From assembly GCF_016595675.1 (NCBI RefSeq), contig NZ_JAENJH010000002.1, forward strand, positions 372,001 to 436,000: a stretch of DNA of 64,000 nt. Reading direction: 5' to 3'. This document shows positions 8,393 through 28,085 of the stretch, piece after piece. Every line of letters starts with the position of its first letter. Position 1 is the first letter of the stretch. Made by a program: the position numbers and the translations under genes. The DNA comes from Prauserella cavernicola. GTDB taxonomy: Bacteria; Actinomycetota; Actinomycetes; Mycobacteriales; Pseudonocardiaceae. The notes beneath the pieces are model-generated. The model saw only the letters and a list, made by a program, of their open reading frames with translations. It did no database searches and was not told the origin of the DNA.

Positions 8393-8962
8393 ATGACGGA
8401 GCCGAATTTCCCGAATTCACACACAGCCGGTAGCCAAGAAGGTGACCAGTCACACCACGTGGTGGTAGTTGGGCCCGATGGCGCTCCGGTGGGTGCGGCG
8501 CGGATCGGTCCCGGTGCCGACGGGGAGAAGAACGAGAGCGTCGGCGACATGGTCGAAGAACCGGCCAAGGTCATGCGGATCGGCACGATGATCAAGCAGC
8601 TCCTCGAAGAGGTGCGCGCCGCTCCGCTCGACGACGCGAGCCGCAACCGGCTGCGCGAGATCCACCAGACCTCGATCAAGGAGCTGGAGCAGGCGCTCGC
8701 CCCCGAACTGCAGGACGAGCTCGAGCGGCTGGTGTCGCCGTTCACGGACGACTCGACGCCGACCGACGCGGAGCTGCGGATCGCGCAGGCCCAGCTCGTC
8801 GGCTGGCTGGAGGGCCTCTTCCACGGCATCCAGACGGCGTTGTTCGCTCAGCAGATGGCCGCCCGCGCCCAGCTGGAGCACATCCGCCGTGGCCTGCCGC
8901 CCGGCACCGGAGGCGGCGAGCAGCCCTCCGGCGGAATCGGCAGCCCCGGCCAGTACCTCTAG
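8393..8962 (+). CDS. bpa: Bacterial proteasome activator Bpa (PafE)
   Basis: 189 residues from ATG 8393 (an ATG 9 bp upstream is possible). It matches M. tuberculosis Rv3780 closely: PAKVMRIGTMIKQLLEEVRA, DDASRNRLREIH, ELRIAQAQLVGWLEGLFHGI and QTALFAQQMAARAQLE are all there, and the protein ends in GQYL, the C-terminal motif that docks into the 20S proteasome and opens its gate. Bpa forms a ring and feeds unfolded proteins to the proteasome without ATP. The N-terminal 50 residues are variable. The last four bases overlap the convergent GT-C gene. No proteasome genes lie in the window. Confidence 0.95.
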   Translation: MTEPNFPNSHTAGSQEGDQSHHVVVVGPDGAPVGAARIGPGADGEKNESVGDMVEEPAKVMRIGTMIKQLLEEVRAAPLDDASRNRLREIHQTSIKELEQALAPELQDELERLVSPFTDDSTPTDAELRIAQAQLVGWLEGLFHGIQTALFAQQMAARAQLEHIRRGLPPGTGGGEQPSGGIGSPGQYL

Positions 8963-10461
8963 CGGCCGGTGAGCCGGTCGAGCCAGCGGTCCACCGTCAG
9001 GTCGTAGCGCCCCGGGTCGTGTGTCCGCTGCGCCTCTTCGACCTTCGGCGCGAGCGCGGCCCGGACCTGGGGCGCGTACTGCGGCAGGACGTAGACGTTC
9101 TGCCAGTACTCCTCGCGCATCCGGACCTCGCCGACCTGCTCGTAGCCCGCGATCGCCACGGGCACGTTGAGGCCGTACTTACGGTCCGGGATCCCCGGCT
9201 GATAGGACGTCACCATGAGCACAGTCGGGCGTGCGTCCATCACCACCTCGGTGGGATCGGCGCCGTGCGCGATGGCCTCGTCGTTGAGTCCGATGTAGTC
9301 GATCGACTGCCAGTCGCTGTAGTACGGGATCGCGCCCGCGTCGCTGACAGCCAGTGTGCGCGCGTCCTCTGGCACGTCGGCCTCGGCGAGTCCCCTGCCG
9401 ATCGCGACGTGGGCCCGCTGGAGGTCCGAGCCGTAGTTGGCGATCAGCGGCAGGTCCGGCGCGGTCGCGCCGGCGACCGCGACCCAGCCGACGGTGATGG
9501 CGCCCACCGCCGTGGCCGCGAGCCGCTGCCCGATCGCGGCCACGGCGATTCCCGCACCGAGGCACAGCACCGGGAACACGTGGTAGGCGAAGCGGTGCAG
9601 GTAGTCCATCGTCGGACCGGACAACGCGTACGGCAGCCAGGTCGCGACGACGGTGAGGCAGAACAGCCCGCCCTTGAACCACAACCCGGCCACCACGAGC
9701 AGGGCGAGCGAGAGCAGCAGCAACGGCGCCAACAGGATCGCCGTGGTCACCACCCACTCGGCGCCCGCTTCCAGGTTGCCGAACTTGACGTAGAAGGTGT
9801 TCGGCAGCAGCTGTCCGTAGTAGAACCAGCGCCAGACGAAGTACCCGGCGCCGACCGCGGCCGCGATGACGGTCGTCCAGCGCGCCACCGGCATCCGGCG
9901 GGAGTACCAGAACCACACCGCGAACGCGGGCAGCGCGGCGAGCAGGCCCTCCGGCCGCAGCATTCCGAGGAACAACAGCAGCAGCGGCGGCTCCCAGTCG
10001 AACACCCGCTCCTCGTCGATCACGCGCACTGCCACGATCACGAGCCGCAGCAGCACCGCGGCGAAGGCCACCGTCTCCAGGCCGCTGTTGGCGTGGAAGT
10101 ACGTGGGCAGGAACAGCACGAACGCGAGGCCGGCGACGACCGATCCGGCGCCCTCGGTGGCCCGCAGCAGCATCACCAGCGTGATGGCGCCGAGCACCAG
10201 CGAGGTCACCTTGGCGACCAGCACCAGGTCGGCGCCGAGCGCGGACCACAGCGCGTGCCACAGCATCCAGGCGAAGTTGGTGAAGCCCTCGACGGCGTCA
10301 CCGCCGACGTTCCAGACCGGACCGAGTCCCTCGGCGAGGTGCTCGCTGTAGCGGAACGTGATGAACGCGTCGTCGATCACGAAGTCCCACGTCAGCCACG
10401 CGCCGAACGCGAACAGCACCGTGAGCCCCAGGCCGAGGCCGATCCGTGCGGCCTTGGTCAT
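8959..10461 (-). CDS. GT-C membrane glycosyltransferase in the pseudaminic acid operon
   Basis: 500 residues from ATG at 10461 with GAAGGAG upstream. The protein starts with one membrane helix followed by WDFVIDDAFITFRYSEHLAE, the Asp-containing first outer loop expected of GT-C enzymes that use polyprenyl-phosphate sugars (AftB/mannosyltransferase type). About ten hydrophobic segments follow, then a soluble C-terminal domain with a D-x-G-A-x-x-Y ... D-x-x-G-L-x-D motif shared with the two other GT-C proteins in this window. Its ATG overlaps the stop of pseG (ATGA), so it is translated with pseF-pseG. Sugar and acceptor are unknown; coupling to Pse genes suggests a role in the same glycan. 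Confidence 0.75.
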   Translation of the reverse strand: MTKAARIGLGLGLTVLFAFGAWLTWDFVIDDAFITFRYSEHLAEGLGPVWNVGGDAVEGFTNFAWMLWHALWSALGADLVLVAKVTSLVLGAITLVMLLRATEGAGSVVAGLAFVLFLPTYFHANSGLETVAFAAVLLRLVIVAVRVIDEERVFDWEPPLLLLFLGMLRPEGLLAALPAFAVWFWYSRRMPVARWTTVIAAAVGAGYFVWRWFYYGQLLPNTFYVKFGNLEAGAEWVVTTAILLAPLLLLSLALLVVAGLWFKGGLFCLTVVATWLPYALSGPTMDYLHRFAYHVFPVLCLGAGIAVAAIGQRLAATAVGAITVGWVAVAGATAPDLPLIANYGSDLQRAHVAIGRGLAEADVPEDARTLAVSDAGAIPYYSDWQSIDYIGLNDEAIAHGADPTEVVMDARPTVLMVTSYQPGIPDRKYGLNVPVAIAGYEQVGEVRMREEYWQNVYVLPQYAPQVRAALAPKVEEAQRTHDPGRYDLTVDRWLDRLTGR

Positions 10462-11420
10462 CGCAGGGCTCCTTCGAGTGCGTCGAGTACACGGGCGGCG
10501 CCCCGGCCGTCGACGGCCTCCGAGGCCGACGCGGCCAGCCGCTGCCTCACGGCGGGCTCGGCCAGCAGCGCGCCGAGTGCGGCACCTGCCTCGTTCAGTG
10601 CGGTCGCGGTGCCCAGCCCGGCGGCAAGGCCCTGGTCGACGGCGGCGCGGTAGCCCGCCGCCTGGTTGTCGACGAGCTGCACGATCGCGGCGGGCACGCC
10701 GATGCAGCAGAGCTCGAACAGGGTCACGCCCGCGGCGCTGACGACCAGGTCGGTGTCCACGAGCTTGTCGTGCAGGCCAGGCCCGGGCGGCGAGACGACG
10801 AAACGCTGAGCGGGTCCCGGCTCGGGCAGCTCGGGCTCGCCGCGCACGAGCGCCTCGACGGAGCACGCGACGCCCGTGGCGCGCAGTGCCCGCAGCAGCT
10901 CGACGACGACGTCCTGCCAGACCCCGCCGCCGCCCAGCACCACCAGCACGCGCGCGGATCCGTCCGGCCGGGACGCGGCCGCGCGCTTGTCCCTCGCCTC
11001 GAGCACCACCTGCCGCAGCGGGGCGTAGGAGACGCCGGTGAGCACCACGCCGGAGCCGTCGTCGGGCCTCGGCTCCGGCACCAGGCCGCAGTCCACCACG
11101 ACGTCGGCGCAACGCCTGCCGAAGGGGCCGTCCTCGAAGGACACCAGCGCCGCGCCCGCCGCGTTCGTCTCGGCCCGCAGCTCGCCGAGCTCGTAGTGGT
11201 CGACCACCAACGCGTCGTAGCCGCGCGGGGACGTCTCCGGCGGCAGCATCGGCACGGCCAGCTCGGCGAAGCGGGCCGCGAGGAAGTCGGCGTTGTCGGT
11301 GCGCCCGGCGAAGGCGACGTCCCAGCCGCGCGCCACGGCCTGCTCGGCCAGCGCGACGACGCGGGAGATGTGCCCGGCCCCGATCTGGCGCGACGAGTCC
11401 GCCCGCAGCAGGATCCTCAC
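10458..11420 (-). CDS. pseG: UDP-2,4-diacetamido-2,4,6-trideoxy-altropyranose hydrolase PseG
   Basis: 320 residues from GTG at 11420, which overlaps the pseF stop (GTGA). Diagnostic N-terminus VRILLRADSSRQIGAGHISR matches PseG, including the His of the IGxGH motif used as catalytic base. The chain has the GT-B fold layout, with VVVDHYELG and VVDCGLVPEP in the first domain and LVVLGGGGVWQDVV and VVSAAGVTLFELCCIGVPA in the second (nucleotide-binding) domain. It removes UDP from the bis-acetamido sugar to give the free 6-deoxy-AltdiNAc that PseI condenses with phosphoenolpyruvate. Cytosolic. Confidence 0.85.
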   Translation of the reverse strand: MRILLRADSSRQIGAGHISRVVALAEQAVARGWDVAFAGRTDNADFLAARFAELAVPMLPPETSPRGYDALVVDHYELGELRAETNAAGAALVSFEDGPFGRRCADVVVDCGLVPEPRPDDGSGVVLTGVSYAPLRQVVLEARDKRAAASRPDGSARVLVVLGGGGVWQDVVVELLRALRATGVACSVEALVRGEPELPEPGPAQRFVVSPPGPGLHDKLVDTDLVVSAAGVTLFELCCIGVPAAIVQLVDNQAAGYRAAVDQGLAAGLGTATALNEAGAALGALLAEPAVRQRLAASASEAVDGRGAARVLDALEGALR

Positions 11421-12151
11421 CGCACCGCCTTCTGCTCCACGTTCGCGTTCAACGCCACCAGGTCGGGGCGGCGTCGCAGCACGCTCACGACCTCGCCCCA
11501 CGAGGGGATGCCGTCGCCGAGCTCGGCGACCACACCCTCCAGTACCGCCCAGTCCGGCTCGGTGTCGAGCGTGACACGCAGGTCGTCGGCTGGTGGCGCC
11601 ACGACCATACCGGCGCAGGAATAACGTTCCGGGTGCCCGTACACACCGGGCGTGACGTGTTCGCGGTGCGCGCCCTCCGGCTCGCGGCCCTGCTCGACGA
11701 GCACCGGCACGCGCACCAGCTCCGCGTCGAAGCCACGCGGCAGCGTGCGCACGAGGAAGTTGTTCACGTAATCGACGTCCGGCCGTGCCCGCCACAGCGC
11801 CACCAGCTGAGCGAGCAGCGCGGGATCGTGCAGCGGGCAGTCGGCGGTGAGCCTCACCACGGCGTCGGCGGGATAACGCTCGCACGCCAGCAGGAATCGG
11901 GCGAGTACGTCGTCCAGCGGCCCCCGCACCACGTCCGCTCCGCAGCGCGCGGCCTCCTCGGCCACGGCGTCGTCGTCGGCGGCGTCCGACGTGGCGACCA
12001 CCACCCGGTCGACTCCCTCGGCCGCGAGCGCGGCCCGCACGACCCAGCCGAGCACGCTGCGACCGCCCAGCTCACGCAGCACCTTGCCCGGCAACCTGGT
12101 CGAGGAGGCCCTCGCCTGGATGACGACGTTCACGACGGGTTGCTCGCGCAT
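11417..12151 (-). CDS. pseF: Acylneuraminate-type cytidylyltransferase (PseF/SpsF family)
   Basis: 244 residues from ATG 12151 (an ATG 9 bp upstream is the alternative; a CATCAT box 7 nt before 12151 favours a leaderless start there). The nucleotide-binding N-terminus reads VVIQARASSTRLPGKVLREL, followed by VVRGPLDDVLARFLLACERY and VVRLTADCPLHDP, the usual SpsF/PseF signatures. It would activate pseudaminic acid as CMP-Pse. PseF is assigned rather than a sialic acid NeuA because it lies head to tail with pseG and divergent from pseB. First gene of the pseF-pseG-GT-C minus-strand operon. Confidence 0.75.
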   Translation of the reverse strand: MREQPVVNVVIQARASSTRLPGKVLRELGGRSVLGWVVRAALAAEGVDRVVVATSDAADDDAVAEEAARCGADVVRGPLDDVLARFLLACERYPADAVVRLTADCPLHDPALLAQLVALWRARPDVDYVNNFLVRTLPRGFDAELVRVPVLVEQGREPEGAHREHVTPGVYGHPERYSCAGMVVAPPADDLRVTLDTEPDWAVLEGVVAELGDGIPSWGEVVSVLRRRPDLVALNANVEQKAVR

Positions 12152-12200: not shown

Positions 12201-13184
12201 ATGACCGAGCTCGACGGGGCGAGCATCCTGCTCACCGGTGGTACGGGCTCGTTCGGAAAAGCGTTCATCACCCACGCGCTCGCCGAGCTGAACCCGCGCA
12301 GGCTGGTCGTGCTCTCACGCGACGAGCTGAAGCAGTACGAGGTCCGCAGGCAGTTCGGTGACGACCCGCGGCTGCGGTGGTTCATCGGCGACGTCCGCGA
12401 CCGGCGCAGGCTCGAGCGCGCGATGCACGGCGTCGACTACGTGGTGCACGCCGCGGCGCTCAAGCAGGTGGACACCGGCGAGTACAACCCGTTCGAGTTC
12501 GTCCAGACCAACGTGGTCGGCTCGCAGAACGTGATCGAGGCCGCCATCGACTCCGGCGTGCGCAAGGTCGTGGCGCTGTCCACCGACAAGGCGTCGAGCC
12601 CGATCAACCTCTATGGCGCCACCAAACTGTGTGCCGACCGCATGTTCATCAGCGCCAACCACTACGCGGCGACGCACCCGACCCGCTTCGCCGTGGTGCG
12701 CTACGGCAACGTTATGGGCTCGCGCGGCAGTGTCATCCCGTTCTTCCGCTCACTCGCCGAGCAGGGTGAGTCGCTGCCGATCACGCACAAGGAGATGACC
12801 CGCTTCTGGATCACGCTGCCGCAGGCGGTGCGGTTCGTGGTCGACTCGTTCGACCAGATGAACGGCGGCGAGCTCTACGTCCCGAGAATCCCGAGCATGC
12901 GGCTCGTCGACCTGGCACAGGCGATCGCGCCGGGCAGCCCGATGCACGAGGTCGGCATCCGGCCCGGCGAGAAGCTGCACGAGGAGATGATCGCCCCGGA
13001 CGACGCGCGCCGGACGGTGCGGCTCGAGGACCGCTACGTGGTGCAGCCGCACATCGCGGGCTGGGGCTACGAGCCGCCCGAGCGCGGAGTCGCCGTGGAG
13101 GACGGCTTCGCCTACCGCTCGGACACCAACGACCTCTGGCTCGACACCGACCAGCTGCAGGAGCTGATCGCCGAACATGAGTGA
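12201..13184 (+). CDS. pseB: UDP-GlcNAc 4,6-dehydratase (inverting) PseB
   Basis: 327 residues, ATG at 12201 behind GGAGG. The short-chain dehydrogenase core is of the PseB/FlaA1 type: ILLTGGTGSFGKAFITHAL (NADP site), SRDELKQYEVRRQF, RWFIGDVRDRRRLERAM, VVHAAALKQVDTGEYNPFE, then STDKASSPINLYGATK carrying the Thr/Asp/Lys catalytic set and the Tyr-x-x-x-Lys. It performs the first step of pseudaminic acid synthesis, giving UDP-2-acetamido-2,6-dideoxy-L-arabino-hexos-4-ulose. pseC overlaps its 3' end by 8 bp. Confidence 0.9.
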   Translation: MTELDGASILLTGGTGSFGKAFITHALAELNPRRLVVLSRDELKQYEVRRQFGDDPRLRWFIGDVRDRRRLERAMHGVDYVVHAAALKQVDTGEYNPFEFVQTNVVGSQNVIEAAIDSGVRKVVALSTDKASSPINLYGATKLCADRMFISANHYAATHPTRFAVVRYGNVMGSRGSVIPFFRSLAEQGESLPITHKEMTRFWITLPQAVRFVVDSFDQMNGGELYVPRIPSMRLVDLAQAIAPGSPMHEVGIRPGEKLHEEMIAPDDARRTVRLEDRYVVQPHIAGWGYEPPERGVAVEDGFAYRSDTNDLWLDTDQLQELIAEHE

Positions 13185-14316
13185 GCCGTTCCTGCCCTAC
13201 GGGCGCCAGTCGATGGGTGACGACGACCTCGCCGCCGTCGCCGAGGTGCTGCGCGGCGACTGGCTCACGACAGGCCCCGCGGTGAGCCGGTTCGAGGCCG
13301 ACCTCGCCGAGCACACGGGCGGAACCCCGGCGGTGGCGGTCACCTCGGGAACGGCGGCGCTGCACGTGGCCTACGCGGCGGCGGGCGTCGGGCCGGGCGA
13401 CGAGGTGGTGACCAGCCCGATGACGTTCGTCGCCACCGCGGCGGGCGCGGCGCTGCACGGCGCGAAGGTCGTCTTCGCCGACGTCGAACCCGACACCGCC
13501 AACCTCGACCCCGCGGCCGCTCGTGCGGCGCTGACGAGCCGCACGAAGGTGCTCGCCGCCGTCGACTACGCGGGCCACCCCGCCGAGCTGGACGAGCTGC
13601 GCACGCTGGCCGACTCGGCCGAGGTGCTGCTGCTGGAGGACGCGGCGCACTCGATCGGCGGCTCGTGGCGCGGCAGGCCGATCGGCTCGCTGGCCGATCT
13701 CACGACGTTCTCGTTCTTCGCGACGAAGAACCTGACCACGGCCGAGGGCGGAGCCGTGGTGAGCGCGTCGGAGGAGCTGCTCGCGCGCGCCAGGGCGTTT
13801 CGCAACCACGGCCTCGTGCGCGATCGCTCCGAGCAGCGCAACCCCGACGAGGGCGGCTGGCACCAGGAGGTGCACGCCTTCGGCCTCAACTACCGCCTGC
13901 CGGACGTGCTGTGCGCGCTCGGCAGCAGCCAGCTGCGGCGGCTGGCCGCGTTCAAGCGCCGCCGCGCGGAGATCCACACGCGCTACGACAAAGCGCTGGC
14001 CGACCTCGACGGCGTGCGCACCCCGGTGACCCGCGACGGCGCCGACCCGATGTGGCACCTGTACTCGCTGCGGGTGCTCGACGGCAGGCGCAGGGCACTG
14101 TTCGAGCACCTGCGCGGGCTCGGCATCGGCGTGCAGGTCAACTACGTGCCCGTGTACTGGCACCCGGTGTTCGAAGACCTCGGCTACCGGCGCGGGCTGT
14201 GCCCGAACGCGGAGCGCTACTACGCGGAACAGCTGTCGCTGCCGCTGTTCCCGGATCTCACCGACTCCGATGTGGACCGCGTGATCACGTCCGTGCGGTC
14301 GTTCTTCGGGGCCTAG
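13177..14316 (+). CDS. pseC: UDP-4-amino-4,6-dideoxy-GlcNAc-altrosamine transaminase PseC
   Basis: 379 residues. DegT/DnrJ/EryC1-type PLP aminotransferase with a full active site: VTSGTAALHVAYAAAGVGPG (phosphate-binding), LLLEDAAHSIGGSW (Asp that contacts the PLP ring nitrogen) and FSFFATKNLTTAEGG, where the Lys forms the Schiff base. The start YGRQSMGDDDLAAV and the IGVQVNYVPVYWHPVFEDLG segment near the C-terminus are typical of PseC. It aminates the PseB product at C4 using glutamate. Overlaps pseB by 8 bp and, at its 3' end, the convergent MMPL gene by 32 bp. Confidence 0.9.
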   Translation: MSEPFLPYGRQSMGDDDLAAVAEVLRGDWLTTGPAVSRFEADLAEHTGGTPAVAVTSGTAALHVAYAAAGVGPGDEVVTSPMTFVATAAGAALHGAKVVFADVEPDTANLDPAAARAALTSRTKVLAAVDYAGHPAELDELRTLADSAEVLLLEDAAHSIGGSWRGRPIGSLADLTTFSFFATKNLTTAEGGAVVSASEELLARARAFRNHGLVRDRSEQRNPDEGGWHQEVHAFGLNYRLPDVLCALGSSQLRRLAAFKRRRAEIHTRYDKALADLDGVRTPVTRDGADPMWHLYSLRVLDGRRRALFEHLRGLGIGVQVNYVPVYWHPVFEDLGYRRGLCPNAERYYAEQLSLPLFPDLTDSDVDRVITSVRSFFGA

Positions 14317-16573: not shown

Positions 16574-17620
16574 TCAGAGAAGGTCCCAGGTCAGCGGCGT
16601 GCCCTTGGGTGCGTCGACGCGGAAGCTGCGGCCCAGCACCGTCGTGATCTCGGCCGGCGCGAGCCCGCCAGCGGGCCGGATCGACCGGACGTTGCGCTCG
16701 GTCACCGCCTCGCCCGCACGCACGTCCTCCACGACGTAGAGCGAGCGGCGCAGGCGCAGGCCCTCGCGCTCGCTGTCCTTCGGCCCGATCACGGGCCTGC
16801 CCAGTGCCTGCCAGGCGCGCCTGGTCTCGGTGACCAGCGCGGCCAGCTCGGCGGGTTCGAGGGAGAACGCGGAGTCGACGCCGCCGTCGTCGCGGCTGAG
16901 GGTGACGTGCTTCTCGATGGCGCACGCGCCCAGCGCCACAGCCGCCACCGGCGCGCCGAGGCCGGGCGTGTGATCGGAGAGGCCAACCAGCGAGTCCGTG
17001 ACAGAGGCCAGCACCGGCAGTCCGCGCAGGTTGCTCTCCTCCGGCGCCGCCGGGTAGCTCGCGGTGCAGCCGAGCACGATCAGCTGGTCGTTGCCCGCCT
17101 CGCGCGCGGTGCGCACGGCCGCGTCGATCTCGGCGACCGACGCCATGCCCGTGGAGATCACCAGCGGCTTGCCGGTGCGCGCGCACAGCTCGATCAGCGG
17201 CAGGTCGACGATCTCCGACGACGCGATCTTGTACGCGGGCGCGTCGAGCGACTCCAGCAGTTCCACGGCGGTCGGGTCGAACGGGCTGGAGAACACCTCG
17301 AGCCCGTGCTCACGGGCCCTGCGGAACAGCGGCTCGTGCCACTCCCACGGCGTGTGCGCGCGCTCGTAGAGCTGGTAGAGGTTCTGCCCGCCCCACAGCT
17401 CGTGCTCGTCGCTCAGCCGGAACGCGGGGCCGTCCACGTCGATCGTGATCGTGTCGGGCCGGTAGGTCTGGAGCTTCACGGCCTGCGCGCCGGTGGCGGC
17501 CACGGCGTCGACGATCGCCAGCGCGCGGTCGAGCTCGCCGTTGTGGTTGCCCGACACCTCCGCGATGACGAACGGCGGGTGCTCGGGCCCGATCTCGTGC
17601 TTACCGATGCGGACGGACAT
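16574..17620 (-). CDS. pseI: Pseudaminic acid synthase PseI (NeuB family)
   Basis: 348 residues. A TIM-barrel NeuB/PseI domain (residues 1-280: FVIAEVSGNHNGELDRAL, VKLQTYRPDTITID, FSSPFDPTAVELL, PAYKIASSEIVDLPLI, ISTGMASVAEIDAAV, GLSDHTPG, CAIEKHVTLSRDDGGVDSAFSL is read across the barrel) is followed by a SAF antifreeze-like domain (RSLYVVEDVRAGEAVTERNV to the end). It condenses 6-deoxy-AltdiNAc with phosphoenolpyruvate to make pseudaminic acid. The PFDPTAV and SSEIVDLPLI wording fits PseI better than NeuB or LegI. pseH lies 2 bp upstream. Confidence 0.88.
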   Translation of the reverse strand: MSVRIGKHEIGPEHPPFVIAEVSGNHNGELDRALAIVDAVAATGAQAVKLQTYRPDTITIDVDGPAFRLSDEHELWGGQNLYQLYERAHTPWEWHEPLFRRAREHGLEVFSSPFDPTAVELLESLDAPAYKIASSEIVDLPLIELCARTGKPLVISTGMASVAEIDAAVRTAREAGNDQLIVLGCTASYPAAPEESNLRGLPVLASVTDSLVGLSDHTPGLGAPVAAVALGACAIEKHVTLSRDDGGVDSAFSLEPAELAALVTETRRAWQALGRPVIGPKDSEREGLRLRRSLYVVEDVRAGEAVTERNVRSIRPAGGLAPAEITTVLGRSFRVDAPKGTPLTWDLL

Positions 17621-17622
17621 GG

Positions 17623-18099
17623 CTACGCATTCTCCAGTGACTTGGCGAGCACGCGGAACGGCCCTGGCTCCGGGGTGACGGCGTAGCCCGCCCTGCCGAA
17701 CAGGGCGAGCGACGCCACGTTGTCCTCGTGGACGGTGGCGAGCACCCGGCGCGCGGAGCGCAGCCCGCGCAGCTCGCGCTCCCCCGCGGCGAGCACGCGC
17801 CCGGCCAGGCCCCTGCCCCGGCTCCCTGGCGCGACGGTGATGCTGACCTCCCAGGTGCCCACGGACTCGCCTTCCACGACGTCGAACCGGACGGTCCCCA
17901 CGGGCCCGCCCTCCTCGGCGACGAACAGCAGCCGGTCTGGCGAGGCCAGCACGCCCTCGAGCCAGCGCATGTGGTCCTCGAGCGCCACGACCTCACCGGC
18001 GCGCGACCACCGCCGCGTCCCGGGATCGTTGCGCCAGGCGAGCAGCAGCTCCGCATCGCCCTCGGTGGCCTCGCGGACCGTCAGCGGGGCCTCGGTCAC
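17623..18099 (-). CDS. pseH: GNAT N-acetyltransferase, PseH candidate
   Basis: 158 residues from GTG 18099, whose GTGA overlaps the stop of the coiled-coil gene. GNAT fold: LTVREATEGDAELLLAWRND at the N-terminus (as in PseH/RimJ types), EVSITVAPGSRGRGLAGRVL forming the acetyl-CoA pyrophosphate loop (R/Q-x-x-G-x-G/A equivalent), then TVHEDNVASLALFGRAGY. In the pathway it would acetylate the 4-amino group of UDP-4-amino-4,6-dideoxy-AltNAc. The assignment rests on the position between pseI and the rest of the cluster, since GNATs are hard to tell apart by motif. Confidence 0.75.
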   Translation of the reverse strand: MTEAPLTVREATEGDAELLLAWRNDPGTRRWSRAGEVVALEDHMRWLEGVLASPDRLLFVAEEGGPVGTVRFDVVEGESVGTWEVSITVAPGSRGRGLAGRVLAAGERELRGLRSARRVLATVHEDNVASLALFGRAGYAVTPEPGPFRVLAKSLENA

Positions 18100-18575
18100 C
18101 CCGCGGCGCCCGCGCGGTCCTCGAGCCTGCGCAGCCGCTCCTCGTACTGCGCGATGCCGGTGAGGCGCACGCGCACCTGGGCGTGCTGGCGCTGCACCTC
18201 CTCGATCAGGGTGCGGGCCTCGGCGAGCTCCGGCTTGTCGGCCGACGGCGCCAGCGCGAGCTTGGCGCGCAGGTCCTCCAGCCGGCCCTCCTGCGCCGCG
18301 ACGTGCGGCACGAGGCGTTCCACCTCGCCGCGCGTCCAGCGCAGGTGACCGCGTGCGTCCTCGAGCCCCGCCTCCAGCTCCGCCAGTCTGCGCCGGTGGT
18401 CGTTGGTGCAGTTCTCCTGCTCGGTGAGGCGGTCGGCGTGCCGGTCGAGACGGTGCAGCTGCTCGAGCCGCTCGACGAACGGGCGCAGTCGCTCCTCGAC
18501 GCGGTAGTCGATCAGCCTGGCGAGCCTCGTGCCTGCGCTCGCGCGAAGCTTTCTCAACGGGTTCACTGACGCCAT
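18096..18575 (-). CDS. Coiled-coil protein of the Pse operon
   Basis: 159 residues, ATG at 18575 with GAAGGA upstream. A basic N-terminus (NPLRKLRASAGTRLARLIDY) is followed by an almost unbroken heptad-rich helix from about residue 35 to 150, with many Glu, Arg and Leu. No signal peptide, membrane segment or catalytic motif. The start resembles short proteins found beside glycosyltransferases in actinobacterial glycan loci, but I cannot name a family. It lies 27 bp from the GT29-like gene and overlaps pseH by 4 bp, so it is cotranscribed with both and may scaffold the enzymes; this is inference. Confidence 0.65.
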   Translation of the reverse strand: MASVNPLRKLRASAGTRLARLIDYRVEERLRPFVERLEQLHRLDRHADRLTEQENCTNDHRRRLAELEAGLEDARGHLRWTRGEVERLVPHVAAQEGRLEDLRAKLALAPSADKPELAEARTLIEEVQRQHAQVRVRLTGIAQYEERLRRLEDRAGAAG

Positions 18576-18602: not shown

Positions 18603-19262
18603 TCAGCGGAGGAACGTGGTGTTGCCGGTCGTCGTCCACGACGCCAGCAATCTTCCCTCGGCGGCGATCTGGTGCTCGGGTCCCACGATGCACGAATCTC
18701 CCGCCGCGTGCTCCCAGGAGGTCTGGTGCGGGTCGTCGATGAACGAGAATCCGGTGAGCACCAACTCAGCGTCGGGAAACGCGGTCCGCGCGATCCACGC
18801 GGCCATCGTGCCCGTCGTCGCCCAGAAACCCTCCGTGCTCGTCGGCAGGTCGAGCGCCTGCGACAGCGGAAGAGTCACCTCGCTGTTCGACACCGGGACG
18901 AAGCCGAGGTCGGCGGGCCACCACTGCGGGATGTTGTCGGGCTCCCAGTGCAGTCTGCCCGGCTCGACCAGCAGGTAGAGGCGCCAACGGTAGTCGGCGA
19001 AGACCCACTTGGTGGCGCGCAGGGCCCGGTTGAACACCACGACGTGGGTCCGGTTCCCGACGGCGGGCGGAGCGCCCGGCTCATCGCACACGAACCCGTT
19101 GACGCGCAGCACGAGGTCACAGGAATCGATGGTCTTGGCCCGCTGCTCATCGGCGGCGAGCGGCTGGTTGCCGACCACGGCGACCGAGCGCGGCCGCGGC
19201 CGATCCGCGTACGACTCGAGCAGGCTCGTGAGCAGACTCGGCGCCCGGACGTCGCTCTCCAT
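18603..19262 (-). CDS. GT29 (sialyltransferase)-like protein
   Basis: 219 residues from ATG 19262. Three sialyltransferase motifs are readable in order. The L motif runs from about residue 27: SVAVVGNQPL, then TIDSCDLVLRVNGF and VGNRTHVVVFNRAL, matching the V-V-G-N ... I-D-x-x-D-x-V-x-R-x-N ... V-G-x-R-T pattern. The S motif is ATTGTMAAWIARTAFPDAEL followed by VLTGFSF. The VS motif is HQIAAE, i.e. His-x4-Glu. There is no signal or membrane segment, so it would act in the cytosol with a CMP-sugar. Being first in the operon with pseH and pseI, it is the best candidate for a pseudaminyltransferase. Activity is inferred. Confidence 0.7.
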   Translation of the reverse strand: MESDVRAPSLLTSLLESYADRPRPRSVAVVGNQPLAADEQRAKTIDSCDLVLRVNGFVCDEPGAPPAVGNRTHVVVFNRALRATKWVFADYRWRLYLLVEPGRLHWEPDNIPQWWPADLGFVPVSNSEVTLPLSQALDLPTSTEGFWATTGTMAAWIARTAFPDAELVLTGFSFIDDPHQTSWEHAAGDSCIVGPEHQIAAEGRLLASWTTTGNTTFLR

Positions 19263-19270
19263 GTCGAGGC

Positions 19271-19276
19271 AAGCTA
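19271..19276 (-). promoter_or_regulatory. -10 box for the GT29-like/pse operon
   Basis: TAGCTT on the minus strand, 8 nt before ATG 19262; no Shine-Dalgarno. The same box and spacing precede the GT-C gene at 33013. Confidence 0.45.
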
Positions 19277-19439
19277 TCACCACACCGGCAGTGCGCAAGG
19301 CGTACACGCACAGCTACCGAGTGCTCCGAATGGGGCAGCGCGACCGATCAACGACGGGTCAGTGAGGCGGTTTTCGGGCGAAGTGGACCGTCCACGCGTG
19401 CTGAAGCGGACGCGCGCGATCGCCGTCATCCGTCGCCAG

Positions 19440-19453: not shown

Positions 19454-20386
19454 GTGCACGCCACAAGCACCGTCGACTCAACGGAAACGTCCACGATGAG
19501 CTCGGGACCGCCCGCCTCGGACAGCCGCACGCTCAAGCGCGCGCTGGCCGATCTGTCCGCCGGCGCCCGGCAGCGCGAGCTGTGGGGACACCTGGCCTGG
19601 CAGGACATCAAGCAGCGGTACCGGCGCTCCGTCCTCGGTCCCTTGTGGATCACGCTGAGCATGGGTATCACCGCGCTCGGCCTCGGGCTGCTGTACTCAC
19701 AGCTGTTCGACGCCGAGATCGGCACGTTCCTGCCCTACATCACCACGGGCTTCATCGTCTGGAACTTCATCCTGGGGTGCCTGACGGAAGGTACGGACAC
19801 CTTCATCTCCAACGAAGGGCTGATCAAGCACCTGCCGGCACCGCTGTCGGTGTACGTGCTGCGCACCGTGTGGCGGCAGAGCATCATGTTCGCCCACAAC
19901 ATGATCATCTACTTCATCGTCATCGCGATCTTCTGGGGTTCGGTGACCACGCCGGACTACTCGATCACCGAGGGCGGCATGCCGCAGCCGGGCCTGAACT
20001 GGGGCGTGCTGCTGGCGATCCCGGCGTTCGCGCTCATCGCGGTGAACGCGGGCTGGGTGGTGCTGCTGTTCGGCATCGCGTCCACGCGCTTCCGCGACAT
20101 CCCGCAGGTCGTCACCAGCCTGATCAACCTGCTGTTCTTCATGACGCCGATCGTCTGGTCCACCGACATTCTCAGGGACAAGTTCGGCGAGAGCGTCGGC
20201 TGGCGAGATCTCGTGGCCGAACTGAACCCGCTGTACCACTTCATCCAGCTCCTGCGCGCCCCGCTCATCGGCAACGAGCAGAGCTGGCACCACTGGGCGA
20301 TCGTCGGCGCCTTCACCGTCGTCGGCTGGCTACTGGCACTGCTGGTGCTGCGCAACTACCGTGCCCGCGTCTCGTATTGGGTGTGA
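19454..20386 (+). CDS. wzm: Polysaccharide ABC exporter permease Wzm (Rv3783/RfbD type)
   Basis: 310 residues from GTG 19454. ABC-2 type permease with six hydrophobic segments. The cytosolic N-terminus WGHLAWQDIKQRYRRSVLGP before the first helix is the classical signature of O-antigen/teichoic acid exporters. Later RDIPQVVTSLINLLFFMTP and ELNPLYHFIQLLRAPLIG are also typical. With Wzt it exports lipid-linked galactan in AG-producing bacteria (Rv3781/Rv3783 in M. tuberculosis). The cluster position next to the Pse genes leaves open that it also moves a Pse-containing glycan. Seven bp to wzt. Confidence 0.88.
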   Translation: MHATSTVDSTETSTMSSGPPASDSRTLKRALADLSAGARQRELWGHLAWQDIKQRYRRSVLGPLWITLSMGITALGLGLLYSQLFDAEIGTFLPYITTGFIVWNFILGCLTEGTDTFISNEGLIKHLPAPLSVYVLRTVWRQSIMFAHNMIIYFIVIAIFWGSVTTPDYSITEGGMPQPGLNWGVLLAIPAFALIAVNAGWVVLLFGIASTRFRDIPQVVTSLINLLFFMTPIVWSTDILRDKFGESVGWRDLVAELNPLYHFIQLLRAPLIGNEQSWHHWAIVGAFTVVGWLLALLVLRNYRARVSYWV

Positions 20387-20393: not shown

Positions 20394-21197
20394 ATGATCA
20401 GCATTGACGTGTGGAACGCGTCCGTCGACTTCCCCATCTTCGACGCGAAGACCCGCTCACTGAAGAAGCGGGTGCTGGGCAAGGTCGGCGGCAAGATCGG
20501 CACCGACAGCAAGGTGCCCATCATCGAGGCACTGCACGACATCAACGTGTCGATCAACAGCGGCGACCGGATCGGCCTCGTCGGCCACAACGGCGCGGGC
20601 AAGTCCACGCTGCTGCGGCTGCTCTCCGGCATCTACGAGCCCACGCGCGGTGCCGCGAGGGTCCGGGGCCGCGTGGCGCCCGTCTTCGACCTCGGCGTCG
20701 GTATGGACCAGGAGATCTCGGGCTACGAGAACATCATGGTCCGTGGTCTCTACCTGGGCATGACGCGCAAGCAGATGGAGAAGCGCGTCGACGACATCGC
20801 CGAGTTCACCGAGCTCGGCGACTACCTGGCGATGCCGCTGCGCACCTACTCCACCGGTATGCGCGTCCGGCTGGCACTGGGTGTGGTCACGTCCATCGAC
20901 CCGGAGATCCTGCTGCTCGACGAGGGCATCGGCGCAGTCGACGCGGCGTTCCTCAACAAGGCCCGCGACCGCCTCGTCGACCTGGTGAAGCGCTCGGGCC
21001 TGCTGGTGTTCGCCTCCCACCAGGACGACCTGCTGCTGGAACTGTGCACCTCGGCCATCTGGATGGACGAGGGCCGGATGAAGATGCAGGGCTCCCTGCG
21101 CGAGGTCCTCACCGCCTACAAGGGCAGGGACCCGTACTCGAACGTCAGCAAGGAGACGCTGGAGCGCCTCGAAGCACCTGCGCTGAGCGGCGACTGA
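20394..21197 (+). CDS. wzt: Polysaccharide ABC exporter ATPase Wzt (Rv3781/RfbE type)
   Basis: 267 residues from ATG 20394. Complete ATPase: Walker A GLVGHNGAGKSTLLRLLSGI, Q-loop region VFDLGVGMDQEISGYENI, signature YSTGMRVRLALG, Walker B PEILLLDEG and H-loop VFASHQD. The N-terminal 45 residues (MISIDVWNASVDFPIFDAKT) are the extension common to Wzt/TagH proteins. There is no extra C-terminal carbohydrate-binding domain, as in the mycobacterial homolog, so substrate recognition does not depend on a capped chain. Lies between wzm and glfT1 in one operon. Confidence 0.9.
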   Translation: MISIDVWNASVDFPIFDAKTRSLKKRVLGKVGGKIGTDSKVPIIEALHDINVSINSGDRIGLVGHNGAGKSTLLRLLSGIYEPTRGAARVRGRVAPVFDLGVGMDQEISGYENIMVRGLYLGMTRKQMEKRVDDIAEFTELGDYLAMPLRTYSTGMRVRLALGVVTSIDPEILLLDEGIGAVDAAFLNKARDRLVDLVKRSGLLVFASHQDDLLLELCTSAIWMDEGRMKMQGSLREVLTAYKGRDPYSNVSKETLERLEAPALSGD

Positions 21198-21198
21198 C

Positions 21199-22104
21199 GT
21201 GTCCGCCAAGGAGCCGTTGCCGGAAGGCGCCGTCGTCGCCGTGGTGGTCACCCGCCACCGGCGGGAGCTGCTCGCCGACTCCCTGAAGGTCATCGAGGCG
21301 CAGACCCGGCCCGTCGACCACCTGATCGTGGTCGACAACGGTCCGGACCTGCCGGCCAAGGACGTGGTGGACGCCTACTCGCTGCCCGCCACCTACTTGC
21401 CGTCGCACCACAACCTCGGCGGCGCGGGCGGTTTCGCGCTGGGCATGCTGCACGCGCTGGCGCTGGGCGCCGACTGGGTGTGGCTCGCCGACGACGACGG
21501 CAGGCCGGCCGACGAGAACGTGCTGCAGGTGCTGCTCGACGAAGCCAACCAACGCGACCTCGCCGAGGTCTCGCCGATGGTGGTCAACATCGACGAGCCG
21601 GAGCGGCTCGCGTTCCCGCTGCGCCGGGGACTCACGTGGAAGCGCTCGTCGGCGGAGCTGGGCAGCGACTTCCTGCCCGGTATCGCGTCGCTGATGAACG
21701 GCGCCCTGTTCCGCGCGTCGACGCTGGAGGTCACGGGTGTCCCGGACCTGCGGTTGTTCTTCCGGGGCGACGAGGTGGAGCTGCACCGCAGGCTGGTGCG
21801 CTCGGGCCTGCCGTTCGGCACTTCGCTGCGCACGGCCTACCTGCACCCGAACGGCTCGGACGAGTTCAAGCCGATGCTGGGCGGCCGGTTCCACGCGCAG
21901 GACCCCGAGAACGAGGTGAAGCGGTACTACACCTACCGCAACCGCGGCTACCTGCTGTCGCAGCCGGGGATGCGCAAGATCGGCGCGCTGGAGGTGCTGC
22001 GCTTCGGCCTGTACTTCGTGGGTGTGAAGCGCGACCCGAAGGCGTTCGTGCAGTGGCTGCGCCTGGTGCGGCAGGGCCGCAAGGAACGCTTCTTCCGCTA
22101 CTGA
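21199..22104 (+). CDS. glfT1: Galactofuranosyltransferase GlfT1
   Basis: 301 residues from GTG 21199, 1 bp after the wzt stop. GT2 (GT-A fold) enzyme: AVVAVVVTRHRRELLADSL at the start, LIVVDNGPDLPAKDVVDAYS, the galactofuranosyltransferase-type NLGGAGGFALGMLHAL, and the metal-binding triad WLADDDGRP. A later RGDEVELHRRLVRSGLPFG segment holds the base-bearing acidic residues. It adds the first two galactofuranose units to the rhamnosyl-GlcNAc-PP-decaprenyl linker on the cytosolic side of the membrane. Same order Rv3781-Rv3782-Rv3783 set in mycobacteria. Confidence 0.88.
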   Translation: MSAKEPLPEGAVVAVVVTRHRRELLADSLKVIEAQTRPVDHLIVVDNGPDLPAKDVVDAYSLPATYLPSHHNLGGAGGFALGMLHALALGADWVWLADDDGRPADENVLQVLLDEANQRDLAEVSPMVVNIDEPERLAFPLRRGLTWKRSSAELGSDFLPGIASLMNGALFRASTLEVTGVPDLRLFFRGDEVELHRRLVRSGLPFGTSLRTAYLHPNGSDEFKPMLGGRFHAQDPENEVKRYYTYRNRGYLLSQPGMRKIGALEVLRFGLYFVGVKRDPKAFVQWLRLVRQGRKERFFRY

Positions 22105-22161: not shown

Positions 22162-23640
22162 CTACTCGCCGATCACGGGCGGCGCGGTGCGCATGTCGGT
22201 GCCGAACACCTCGTCGGGGTCACCCTCGACGAGGTAGGTGGGCCGCTGGTGCTCGGCGTCGTCCTCGCCCTTGCCACCGCGACCGGCACCACCCATGCCG
22301 CCTGCCATGCCCGCACCCCGGCCACCGGCCGCGGCGGCGGCACCGGGAGCGGCGGCGCCACTGCCCATCGGCCCCATGCCGGTCTTGGCCGCGCCGGAGG
22401 ACGCGCCGGGAGCCGCTCCCGCCCCGGAGCCGCTGCCGCCGGGGCCGAAGCCACCGGCGCCACCGCGACCGAGCTTGCTGGAGTAGTCGGACCCTCCGGC
22501 GCCACCCATGCCGCCTCCGCCCATCGGCCCCATGGGCATCGCACCCATCCCGTTGAGGCCGTTGTTGCCGCCCCCTCGAGAGGGCATCCGCGGCGGCGTG
22601 GCCGTGGGCGGCCGGTACCCGGACGGGTTGGTGCCGCGAGGTGTGGACCCGGTGACGTTGCCGGCCGGCAGGGGCGTGGGAACGGAGCTCCCGCCGCCAC
22701 CGATCGAGCCACCACCGCTGCCGTAGCTGCCACCGCCACCGGCGCCGGGCACGGTGCCTCCGCCGGGAACGGAGCCCCCGCTGAACCCGGACGCCTCGGT
22801 GCCCCCGTTGCCGGGCATGTTGATACCGGTACCGGGCGGCTTGAGCCCCGTGCCCTCACCGCTGCCGACGCCGAACTTCGGCGGCTCGGCGAACACGGGC
22901 TGCTTCGACGCGGCCCCGTAGAGGTCGTTGTCGTACTGGGTCATCACCCGCGCGGCCTCGCTGTGGGCCTCTTGGTTGCGCTGGTAGGTCTCGATGGAGC
23001 TGTTCATGCTGTCGACCATGGTGAAGGGGTTTCCCCCCCATTTCGCCATCTCGGTCTTCCAGTCGAACGGCACCTCTTCGGGCATGCTGTTCTTGGCGGT
23101 GGTCGCGGCTTCCGACTGCTGGTACATGACCTCGGAAGCCAACTGGGCATTGCTGGAGTTGCCGTCGGCCCAGGTGCTGAGGCTGTCGAAGTAGCCGTGC
23201 GCCTGGTCGGCCGCACTGCCCTCCCACTCGTGCTGCGACTTGCCGACGGCGTCCTTCAGCTGAGTGGCGAACTCGGAGAACATGCTGTGCAGCTCGTGGT
23301 AAGCCGTCGAGACCTCGGTGATCTGGCCCGCGTCGAGGTTCTCCGTGACGTAGCGGGACATCTCCTGGTGCTCGACGCCGGGGTAGTTGGCGCCCGACGG
23401 CTGGAGGCCCTCGACGTACTGCACCTCGCCGGACGACAGCTCTTGGACCCGGTTGTTGCCGATCTCGTCAGCCTGCTTGCCGGCCTTCGCCGTGGCCACG
23501 ACCTGGTTGATCATGCCCATCAAACCGGTGGTGTCGACACCGGCCTGTTCCATCTCGGTGAGCCGCTGCTGCCGTTCGGCAGGCGCCATCTGAGCCAGTT
23601 GTTCCGGCGTGTAATGCGGCGTCGGTGCAGTAGGCATCAT
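22162..23640 (-). CDS. WXG100/PPE-like type VII secretion substrate with Gly-rich tail
   Basis: 492 residues from ATG 23640 (AAGGGG upstream; ATG 23637 also possible). The N-terminal 230 residues are helical and hold a WXG motif (SQHEWEGSAADQAHGYFDSL) within a helix-turn-helix like WXG100/PPE proteins. Then a long low-complexity part rich in Gly, Pro, Ser and Met (about residues 250-460). The C-terminus is an acidic conserved tail (PTYLVEGDPDEVFGTDMRTA, then PPVIGE), which I recognise from Pseudonocardiaceae PPE-like proteins. Probably exported by an ESX system; no ESX core genes are in the window. The DUF3558 lipoprotein lies 2 bp upstream. Confidence 0.7.
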   Translation of the reverse strand: MMPTAPTPHYTPEQLAQMAPAERQQRLTEMEQAGVDTTGLMGMINQVVATAKAGKQADEIGNNRVQELSSGEVQYVEGLQPSGANYPGVEHQEMSRYVTENLDAGQITEVSTAYHELHSMFSEFATQLKDAVGKSQHEWEGSAADQAHGYFDSLSTWADGNSSNAQLASEVMYQQSEAATTAKNSMPEEVPFDWKTEMAKWGGNPFTMVDSMNSSIETYQRNQEAHSEAARVMTQYDNDLYGAASKQPVFAEPPKFGVGSGEGTGLKPPGTGINMPGNGGTEASGFSGGSVPGGGTVPGAGGGGSYGSGGGSIGGGGSSVPTPLPAGNVTGSTPRGTNPSGYRPPTATPPRMPSRGGGNNGLNGMGAMPMGPMGGGGMGGAGGSDYSSKLGRGGAGGFGPGGSGSGAGAAPGASSGAAKTGMGPMGSGAAAPGAAAAAGGRGAGMAGGMGGAGRGGKGEDDAEHQRPTYLVEGDPDEVFGTDMRTAPPVIGE

Positions 23641-23642
23641 GA

Positions 23643-24227: not shown

Positions 24228-24237
24228 CCGTCCAGTC

Positions 24238-26135: not shown

Positions 26136-28085
26136 TCACAGCTCGTAGAGCCGCGTCCAGTTGTCGCGGCTGGTCAGCTCGGGCATGGCGCGCTTGTACT
26201 GCGCCTGCACCGCATGGCCTTCCTTGCGGAGCCGGTTCACGACGCGAACGCCGCGCTTGGCCAGGTCGAACATCCGGTCGCGGTCGTAGCGACGGACGCG
26301 CACACCCTCCTGGGAGGCGTCGGTGACGACCGCGGTCTCGAACAGCGACACGTGCCACCAGTGGGCCTCGTCGCTGGGGATGGCGCCGAGCGCGAAGCGG
26401 TGCTTGCCGAGCAGGCGGTTGAGACCGCGCTTGAGCAGCACCGCGCGCTGCATGCTGGGCCTTGGCGCCGTGTTGATGATGCCGATGTCGTTGGACGCGA
26501 TGCCGGGGACGTCGGTGGCGGCGTGCCGCTTGGTCTCCGGGTACTGCGCCCGGATCTCGCGGATCTCCTTCATCGCGGCGACACCGCCGTCGTGCAGGAT
26601 CTCCGGCCCCTCGAGGAAGTCCTCGACCGCCTTGATGAGGGTCGCCGAGAGTCCGTACTGCATGCCGAGCAGGTACCGCACCAGCTGGGCCATGAGGACC
26701 CGGGAGAGCACGTTCAGGTCGAACGGGCTGTGCAGCGCGGCCGTGATGATCGAGTTACGCAGGTTGAAGTAGCGGTGCCACTCGTCCCAGTCCTTCCAGT
26801 GGAAGTCCGCGTGCCACACGCCCGCGCCCGGCAGCGTCACGGTCGGGAAGCCGTGGGCCTTGGCCCGGTAGCTGTACTCCGCGTCGTCCCACTGGAAGAA
26901 GAACGGCATCGGGTAGCCGATCTCCTTGACCACCTCGTACGGGATCAGGCACGACCACCAGCCGTTGTAGCCGGCGTCGAGGCGGCGCTCCTGCTGCTTC
27001 GGGTTGCCGTTGTGGTCGACGCCGAGCAGGTCGGCGGTGTTGAAGCTGTGCGCCACCGGCTGGCCGGGCTCCAGCGTGTTGAGCCGGGCGTACTCCGCGC
27101 CGACGTGCAGCTGGTTCGGGTGGAGCAGGTTGAGCATCTGCCCGCCGACGATCATCGGGTTCGCCGCACGGTTGGAGAACGCCGTCAACCGGATCACGAG
27201 GTCCGGCTCGAGCAGCACGTCGTCGTCCATGAACAGCACGTTGGCGTGTTCGGTCTCGGTGTGCCCCGCGACCTCGTAGAGGCCGCGGGTGAAGCCGCCG
27301 GCGCCACCGAGGTTCGGCTGCTTGATGTAGCGCAGCTTGGTGCCGAGCTTCTCGGCGACCTCGGCGAAGCCGTCCCGCGAGTCGACGGTGTCGTTGCCCT
27401 GGTCGGCGACGTAGATGGCGTCGAGCGTGTCGAGCGCGGGCAGCGAGTCGGCCAGCGCCTTCAGGTTCGCCAGGCAGTCGTCGGCGCGGTTCATCGTGCA
27501 GATGGTCACCGCGGTCGGGCGCACCTTCTCCGGCGGCTCGACGGTCCAGCGGACGTCGGAGACGGTCAGGCGCTCACCGGCCTCGGTCTCCAGGTCGAGC
27601 CACAGCGCGCCGCCGTCGTAGAACTTGTCCAGCTTGGCCTCGAGCGAGACGGTGCCCGGCTGCTTGGCGTTGTCGACCTTCGTGGCGGCGACGGTGCGCC
27701 ACACGCCCTCGACGTCGGAGGCCCGCACGGACAGCTGACCGGAGCCGGTGACGGCGGCCTCGACGGTCACGGAGGCAACCTTGGTCCAGCGCTGCCAGTA
27801 GCTGGCGGGGAACCGGCCGAAGTAGGTGTTGCCCGACACCTTGGCCGAGGGCTCCAGCGTGAGGCTTTCGCGGTCGCGGGAGGCGACGCCCTCGGTGATG
27901 CTGGAGTAGAGGTCCTTGCTCACCACATCGGACGGCCCCGCGAAGAGACCGCGCTGCGCGAGGAGCCTGCCCTGGGGTGTGTGCTCGGAGAACAGCGCCT
28001 GCTCCTCGCTCGTCGTCGCGGCAGCCGGGGCCTTGCCGTTGGCGGCCGGCTGTTGTGCGGTGGCCGGAGCGGCTTTACCGGGCAT
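26136..28085 (-). CDS. glfT2: Galactofuranosyltransferase GlfT2
   Basis: 649 residues (M. tuberculosis GlfT2 is 637). N-terminal beta-barrel domain to about residue 190, then GT-A domain: VTICTMNRADDCLANLKALA, YIKQPNLGGAGGFTRGLYEV, metal-binding NVLFMDDDVLLEPD, the catalytic-base region FFFQWDDAEYSYRAKAHGFP, and VWHADFHWKDWDEWH with the third metal ligand His. The C-terminal helical domain ends in TRLYEL. It polymerises the alternating beta-1,5/1,6 galactan from UDP-Galf. The first 30 residues are Ala/Pro-rich and specific to this organism. GAGG lies 4 nt before the ATG. Confidence 0.95.
   Translation of the reverse strand: MPGKAAPATAQQPAANGKAPAAATTSEEQALFSEHTPQGRLLAQRGLFAGPSDVVSKDLYSSITEGVASRDRESLTLEPSAKVSGNTYFGRFPASYWQRWTKVASVTVEAAVTGSGQLSVRASDVEGVWRTVAATKVDNAKQPGTVSLEAKLDKFYDGGALWLDLETEAGERLTVSDVRWTVEPPEKVRPTAVTICTMNRADDCLANLKALADSLPALDTLDAIYVADQGNDTVDSRDGFAEVAEKLGTKLRYIKQPNLGGAGGFTRGLYEVAGHTETEHANVLFMDDDVLLEPDLVIRLTAFSNRAANPMIVGGQMLNLLHPNQLHVGAEYARLNTLEPGQPVAHSFNTADLLGVDHNGNPKQQERRLDAGYNGWWSCLIPYEVVKEIGYPMPFFFQWDDAEYSYRAKAHGFPTVTLPGAGVWHADFHWKDWDEWHRYFNLRNSIITAALHSPFDLNVLSRVLMAQLVRYLLGMQYGLSATLIKAVEDFLEGPEILHDGGVAAMKEIREIRAQYPETKRHAATDVPGIASNDIGIINTAPRPSMQRAVLLKRGLNRLLGKHRFALGAIPSDEAHWWHVSLFETAVVTDASQEGVRVRRYDRDRMFDLAKRGVRVVNRLRKEGHAVQAQYKRAMPELTSRDNWTRLYEL

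Follow-up and report, generated by a model that had tools for sequence, protein, structure and literature searches.

A small soil-bacterium enzyme as a probable pseudaminyltransferase of a cell-wall glycan

What does a soil bacterium do with a gene that carries the motifs of GT29 sialyltransferases, and to what would its product transfer a sugar? The gene lies in a 64,000-nucleotide stretch of Prauserella cavernicola DNA (contig NZ_JAENJH010000002.1, positions 372,001 to 436,000), referred to here as the window. The main new point is that the enzyme forms an invariant pair with a coiled-coil protein, here called CC, and that this pair stands beside exchangeable nonulosonate pathways and mostly beside galactan export genes. 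Our overall explanation, to which we give a probability of about 0.6, is that the GT29-type enzyme, with CC, transfers a nonulosonic acid to a glycan at the cytoplasmic face of the membrane, galactan being the likeliest acceptor. What computation shows is the fold, the motifs, an unvarying association of the enzyme with both CC and a nonulosonate synthase, and a link in the genome to export of galactan.

The enzyme and its GT29-type fold

The gene can be read from two starts, of which the codon-usage gene caller prefers the ATG at 19262 over the GTG at 19307:

18603..19262, minus strand: GT29-type cytidine monophosphate (CMP)-nonulosonate transferase, a putative pseudaminyltransferase; 219 residues, ATG at 19262, TGA at 18605-18603
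18603..19307, minus strand: the same GT29-type gene from the alternative upstream GTG start at 19307; 234 residues

A preliminary description, made from the sequence alone, gave the coordinates 18603..19262 correctly, without stating that the coding strand is minus. A plus-strand open reading frame over the same positions was rejected as antisense, the gene caller choosing the minus-strand gene; antisense frames are abundant in this GC-rich window, and this is one such. No membrane helix was found in the 219-residue protein (the maximum 19-residue Kyte-Doolittle mean is 0.99), and the earlier proposal of a soluble, cytosolic protein is supported by this lack of any sufficiently hydrophobic stretch.

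GT29 (PF00777) was the sole family to match in Pfam at E<=10, with E 1.3e-4 over the L motif only and a score of 21.9 bits, below the curated cut-off of 23, so that the profile search proposed in the preliminary description points to this family without reaching its threshold. The GT29 assignment therefore depends on the fold and the motifs, and the protein is named GT29-type rather than a formal GT29 member. It is the single PF00777 match in its own genome, and the same search gave 0/14 matches in control genomes. An NCBIfam scan of the 219-residue protein gave no family, and a single-sequence search against PDB sequences returned ST6Gal1 alone, at E 0.22. The predicted model has the GT29 fold: in Foldseek, every PDB match at E<=0.001 was a GT29 structure, which bears out the fold claimed earlier. 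Alternatively, the protein could belong to GT42, GT52, GT80 or GT97, or be a common Rossmann-fold protein whose motifs arose by chance. A comparison with these four families, also suggested earlier, gave no Pfam match for the window protein at E<=10, and identity with any of them was rejected; when 36 members were scanned, each of the four families matched one member, at E 0.12-0.89. With the PDB matches exclusively GT29, we regard this alternative as extremely improbable.

The L, S and VS sialylmotifs stand in the order described earlier. In the 219-residue protein, VAVVGN is at 27-32, TIDSCDLVLRVN at 44-55, VGNRTH at 68-73, ATTGTMAAW at 148-156, TGF at 170-172 and HQIAAE at 197-202. Conservation was assessed in 51 distinct sequences, namely the window protein together with 50 homologues, the most distant of which are about 45% identical. 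Sixteen motif-region residues are identical in 51/51 (G31, N32, R41, D46, D49, R53, G69, T149, T150, G151, G171, S173, H185, G188, H197 and E202), which is why the motifs exceed what chance would give. The L motif is matched by the PF00777 profile at residues 23-79 and includes the invariant G31, N32, D46, D49, R53 and G69. The S motif is correctly ordered, with T149, T150, G151 and G171 invariant, and was matched by eye without a significant profile match. In the motif III region, H185 is followed by Ala or Ser rather than Tyr (alignment A2); a GT29 protein of a huge phage reads HYWE at this position. The VS motif, H-x4-E, is formed by H197 and E202, which align with the H-x4-E of ST6Gal1 and ST8SiaIII in a stretch that is non-significant by itself. 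We take H197, the His of the VS motif, to be the catalytic His.

It is conceivable that the protein has kept the GT29 fold without being a transferase, binding a CMP-sugar or a glycan as a sensor or scaffold. There is a precedent in the similar fold of SteA, HPPK and thiamin pyrophosphokinase, none of them sialyltransferases. Against this are the invariance of H197, E202, H185 and the S-motif T-T-G in all 51 sequences, the lack of a match to any other sialyltransferase family in Pfam at E<=10, and the fact that no other nonulosonate transferase was recognised beside the pair, most unlabelled neighbours not having been searched. We consider a non-catalytic role improbable, and the protein is very probably a CMP-nonulosonate transferase.

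The coiled-coil partner and the nonulosonate pathways

A search of the order to which the host belongs (397 genomes) gave 39 matches to the enzyme at E<=0.001, comprising 38 strong matches (E<=1.1e-57) and one weak one (G289, E 4.7e-4, 21% identity), which was left out and was not recovered by tblastn in its region L061. The 38 positive genomes fall in two families, with 24 in that of the window and 14 in another, here f16. Hosts include Prauserella, Amycolatopsis, Saccharomonospora, Qaidamihabitans and a metagenome-assembled genome of Actinophytocola. Across the phylum, 2/396 genomes matched, these being the window's own genome and G702, a weak L-motif match.

The gene following the enzyme is

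18096..18575, minus strand: coiled-coil partner CC, 159 residues; next gene downstream of the enzyme, 27-bp gap

The next same-strand gene after the enzyme encodes CC in 52/52 loci (one region is counted twice, as L051 and L076, and contributes one protein to the 51). A CC profile run against the same 397 genomes gave 38 strong matches (E<=7.1e-33), in exactly the 38 genomes that have the enzyme; five weak matches (E 3e-4 to 6e-4) were left out. The single-chain model of CC (predicted local distance difference test, pLDDT, 86.2; predicted template-modelling score 0.38) has a helix of 103 residues at 6-108 and one of 44 at 115-158, a long helical rod able to serve as a spacer, and 24/34 a/d positions are hydrophobic in the best of the seven heptad registers. 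The invariant columns are in the C-terminal third, apart from the first Met, and the N-terminal part varies in length among loci, with starts as called. Because gene starts come from the codon-usage caller, CC gene lengths and intergenic gaps are approximate. The CC and pseH genes share 4 bp, and 2 bp separate pseH from pseI; with the 27-bp gap, this spacing makes the enzyme, CC, pseH and pseI look like one operon. The same perfect co-occurrence and adjacency would be expected if CC were itself the acceptor, with pseudaminic acid placed on its Ser or Thr residues as Maf enzymes do on flagellin. We think this unlikely, and it is highly probable that CC is the working partner of the GT29-type enzyme. 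The invariant CC neighbour, together with the adjacent galactan exporter, provides the best clues to mechanism, and both were missed by the preliminary description.

The genes that would supply the donor, pseudaminic acid (Pse), surround the pair:

17623..18099, minus strand: PseH-like GNAT acetyltransferase; TIGR03585 38.3 bits, cut-off 93.1
16574..17620, minus strand: PseI pseudaminic acid synthase; TIGR03586 450.7 bits, cut-off 340.25
13177..14316, plus strand: PseC aminotransferase; TIGR03588 413.3 bits, cut-off 423.5
12201..13184, plus strand: PseB 4,6-dehydratase; TIGR03589 487.6 bits, cut-off 407.75
11417..12133, minus strand: PseF-like cytidylyltransferase, which would make CMP-Pse; start from the codon-usage caller; longer reading frame CTP_transf_3 81 bits, TIGR03584 31.7 bits, cut-off 205.7
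10458..11420, minus strand: PseG-like hydrolase; start from the codon-usage caller; TIGR03590 89.1 bits, cut-off 153.55
8959..10461, minus strand: 500-residue protein without a Pfam or NCBIfam family, overlapping pseG by 4 bp

The pathway is present, with PseB and PseI over their curated cut-offs and PseC, PseF, PseG and PseH recognised, in support of the earlier statement that the enzyme lies among Pse synthesis genes. The protein at 8959..10461 is presumably a multi-spanning GT-C transferase, judged by look only; in many Pse loci its place is taken by an unlabelled protein of about 360-430 residues. An MMPL-family transporter gene lies within the Pse cluster both in the window (14285-16477, minus strand) and in L040 (Prauserella flavalba), and was not seen in the remaining loci drawn.

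A synthase of the NeuB/PseI family is found in 38/38 positive genomes, on the contig of the enzyme and within about 12 kb of it in 37/38 and on another contig in G338. The remaining 359 genomes include 51 with a synthase at E<1e-20; eight weaker synthase matches were left out of the 89 genomes used. Fisher values computed from these counts take no account of how the genomes are related and are not read as probabilities. A single family, f15, accounts for 41 of these 51 genomes that have a strong PseI/NeuB match without the GT29-type enzyme, and presumably uses another transferase for its nonulosonate.

Three pathways alternate beside the pair: Pse, NeuC-NeuB-NeuA (Neu) and a Kdn-like pathway. 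For NeuC-NeuB-NeuA loci (NeuC 352.4 bits in L066 and 331.2 bits in L076, cut-off 235.9), the gene content predicts N-acetylneuraminic acid, with a legionaminic route as the alternative. The Kdn-like pathway consists of a short NeuB and a fusion of CMP-synthetase and phosphatase, which resembles KdsC or Kdn-9-phosphatase and stays below the 180-bit cut-off (82.6 and 116.4 bits), so that the name Kdn-like is a guess at the product. The NCBIfam scan covered two Kdn-like loci (L055 and L057) and two Neu loci (L066 and L076); the labels of the others come from tblastn similarity to those four or to PseI of the window. Two were labelled Neu by hand: L053, which has NeuC and NeuA inside the fetched stretch and its synthase just outside, and L062, in which the enzyme gene lies close to the end of its contig and a different contig (L083) carries the synthase. 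In L082, PseI is a fragment, located where the contig ends.

On a tree of the 51 sequences (Pse 35, Neu 9, Kdn-like 7), the pathway labels require six changes by parsimony, and they cluster more strongly than in all 200 shuffles. Enzymes with different pathways can be closely related, those of L068 (Neu) and L082 (Pse) being 87% identical. The presence of the same enzyme and CC beside Pse, Neu or Kdn-like genes ties the branch to nonulosonates as a class and makes CMP-nonulosonate transferase the safer name. The suggestion of a GT29-type pseudaminyltransferase made in the preliminary description thus holds in part: CMP-Pse is the likely donor here, and the branch as a whole is not specific for Pse. 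That Pse is the donor in the window's genome is a conclusion we hold with good confidence.

Two further observations concern the donor. Position 55 is Asn in 44/51 sequences and Thr in 7/51, the latter including six of the seven Kdn-labelled and one of the nine Neu-labelled sequences; the L-motif R-V-N-G becomes R-[ML]-T-[ST], with the changes at residues 54-56, in L055, L058, L060 and L062-L065. This Thr55 branch could possibly mark donor specificity, or could simply reflect shared descent. In Amycolatopsis arida (L051), a Pse-type cytidylyltransferase 74% identical to the window's lies beside NeuC-NeuB-NeuA, about 4.2 kb downstream of the enzyme, as if left over from a Pse pathway that had been replaced.

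The galactan export neighbourhood and the proposed acceptor

On the other side of the enzyme are the genes for galactan synthesis and export:

19496..20386, plus strand: Wzm-like ABC-2 permease; oriented away from the GT29-type gene across a 233-bp gap
20394..21197, plus strand: Wzt galactan exporter ATPase, 267 residues; NF050108 466.2 bits, cut-off 400; start from the caller
21199..22104, plus strand: GlfT1 galactofuranosyltransferase; NF050113 505.1 bits, cut-off 330
26136..28085, minus strand: GlfT2-like galactofuranosyltransferase; no GlfT2 model matched

We take the product of 26136..28085 to be GlfT2, naming it from its sequence and position. The wider window also encodes DprE1, UDP-galactopyranose mutase and an Emb-type arabinosyltransferase. 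Between glfT1 and glfT2 (22162-25708, minus strand) are genes that recur in many Amycolatopsis and Prauserella loci and that presumably belong to type VII secretion, resembling an EspG-like and a Pro/Gly-rich protein.

In 41/52 loci, across two families, about 5 kb or less separates the gene for Wzm from that of the enzyme. The remaining 11 comprise L057, where it is 8.8 kb away, L062, which is close to the end of its contig, and nine f16 loci whose fetched stretch contains no wzm. An enzyme that is soluble and uses a CMP donor is expected to work in the cytoplasm, which is where galactan is made. Lipid-linked galactan is thereby indicated as the acceptor, without proof, and we place its likelihood a little short of even.

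A possible, less probable explanation is that the enzyme is a pseudaminyltransferase with an acceptor other than galactan: another lipid-linked wall glycan (for example one resembling teichulosonic acid), a glycolipid, or a lipid carrier, from which the sugar would be passed to the GT-C-like protein at 8959-10461. The family-less protein overlapping pseG and the nine loci without wzm in the fetched stretch fit this explanation, as does the report that a Kdn-containing teichulosonic acid is the major wall glycopolymer of Streptomyces coelicolor (PMC7831098). Set against it are the closeness of wzm in the 41 loci of two families, the fact that the GT-C-like gene goes unrecognised in many loci, and the finding that the galactan enzymes are the only glycan polymerases recognised nearby, among neighbours that are mostly unlabelled and were not searched against families. 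On balance we prefer galactan.

Proposed mechanism and comparison with known systems

From these results we infer catalysis, a CMP-Pse donor, a galactan acceptor and a spacer or scaffold role for CC. The soluble GT29-type enzyme would take a nonulosonic acid from its CMP form (CMP-pseudaminic acid in this genome) and add it to a glycan at the cytoplasmic membrane face, with CC binding and positioning the enzyme. The likeliest acceptor would be the growing lipid-linked galactan of arabinogalactan, ahead of its export by Wzm-Wzt. The galactan would be capped or decorated, with CC as scaffold and perhaps, as speculation, as ruler. We put forward tentatively the fuller proposal that transferase and coiled-coil spacer cap or decorate this galactan with nonulosonic acid before export, using an exchangeable sugar pathway, and that orthologues add differing caps. 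The exchange of Pse, neuraminic-type and Kdn-like pathways would imply that one and the same wall polymer bears different sialic-acid-like caps from one related actinobacterium to the next.

Several observations weigh against this explanation. The PF00777 score is 1.1 bits short of the cut-off, and just 19/36 members scanned match PF00777 at E<=1, the best at 4e-5. Sequence profiles gave no significant alignment over the S and VS motifs. The Foldseek superpositions on 23 GT29 chains are loose (template-modelling score 0.44-0.58 by query length, root-mean-square deviation 5.2-12.3), and the predicted model has a mean pLDDT of 52 at residues 101-110. PseC, PseF, PseG and PseH are under their curated cut-offs. 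The exporter is outside the fetched stretch in 9/52 loci, all f16; six of these nine genomes have Wzt on the enzyme's contig, 18-33 kb away, and three on another contig, galactan Wzt being over the cut-off in 14/14 positive f16 genomes. Finally, the pair is missing from 359/397 genomes of the order, and so cannot be a step that arabinogalactan synthesis generally requires.

If the proposal is true, a fold familiar mainly from the animal Golgi, that of GT29, would be placed in a bacterial context with a predicted donor and acceptor and a partner protein. Some Pseudonocardiaceae should then have nonulosonic acid attached to arabinogalactan or to a wall glycan related to it. The repeated swapping of Pse, Neu and Kdn-like genes next to enzymes that are close relatives (one Neu/Pse pair shares 87% identity) amounts to a natural experiment on donor specificity within this fold, and a pseudaminyltransferase of the GT29 type that is small and soluble would be useful as a reagent. 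No GT29 pseudaminyltransferase was found in the literature searched, a search that did not reach most subscription journals, and no nonulosonic acid on arabinogalactan was found there either, such actinobacterial wall chemistry perhaps being in subscription journals not covered.

Animal GT29 enzymes (ST6GalNAc2, ST3Gal1, ST8SiaIII and ST6Gal1; PF00777) are 16-19% identical to the window protein in structural alignments. The window protein differs from them in being small (219 residues), soluble, without a membrane anchor and below the Pfam cut-off, and in having a bacterial gene cluster, a constant coiled-coil neighbour and Pse, Neu or Kdn-like pathway partners. A 2018 study describes 23 bacterial GT29 sequences, 19 of them alphaproteobacterial, without assigned function (PMC5811610), which agrees with the earlier remark that bacterial members are few; the term Actinobacteria does not occur in that study, and bacterial function is treated there as not predictable. 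Like those 23, the window protein is bacterial and has no membrane domain or disulfide of the animal kind; unlike them, as they are described (PMC5811610), it belongs to a branch linked with Pse, Neu or Kdn-like genes, with CC and with galactan export.

Relatives were also sought on mobile elements. Viral contigs searched with peptide patterns gave no match, and a plasmid search gave three weak partial matches (E 0.05-0.1). A Rhizobium sp. C104 plasmid protein (L087:3004-3597), annotated 'Urease operon accessory protein', perhaps a misnomer, has a weak GT29 likeness (PF00777 11.5 bits, E 0.2, below the cut-off). A 210-residue protein of a 484-kb uncultured phage (L089:2965-3597, LR756508.1; tblastn E 9e-5) is a clear GT29 (PF00777 93.8 bits), and the gene before it resembles GDP-mannose 4,6-dehydratase by eye. 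A second huge phage (LR756500.1, 462 kb) encodes a GT29-like protein of 206 residues (L098:1477-2097; tblastn E 1e-3).

The transfer of pseudaminic acid, as inferred for the window enzyme, would be shared with KpsS1 (GT118) and the Maf flagellin transferases. A parallel in arrangement is found in exported O-polysaccharides. Several O-polysaccharides of Klebsiella and E. coli exported by ATP-binding cassette (ABC) transporters are described as ending in terminal modifications, and two of the terminators are transferases of ketodeoxyoctonic acid (Kdo), namely WbbB (beta-Kdo) and ORF7 of Klebsiella O4 (GT137), tied to a coiled-coil length ruler (PMC11231755). A WbdD-like termination read by the exporter was rejected for the window, given that enzyme and coil are not one polypeptide and that Wzt has no carbohydrate-binding module: the ABC model spans residues 15-257 of a 278-residue reading of Wzt (267 by the caller), leaving no room for one. 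Thus the system is unlike WbdD, WbbB and O4 ORF7 in that enzyme and coiled coil are on separate adjacent genes in 52/52 loci, in that the transferase is of another family, the GT29 type, and in that Wzt lacks the C-terminal module that reads the cap. It is like WbbB and O4 ORF7 in combining an ABC exporter with a coiled coil and an enzyme for a CMP-ulosonate (PMC11231755).
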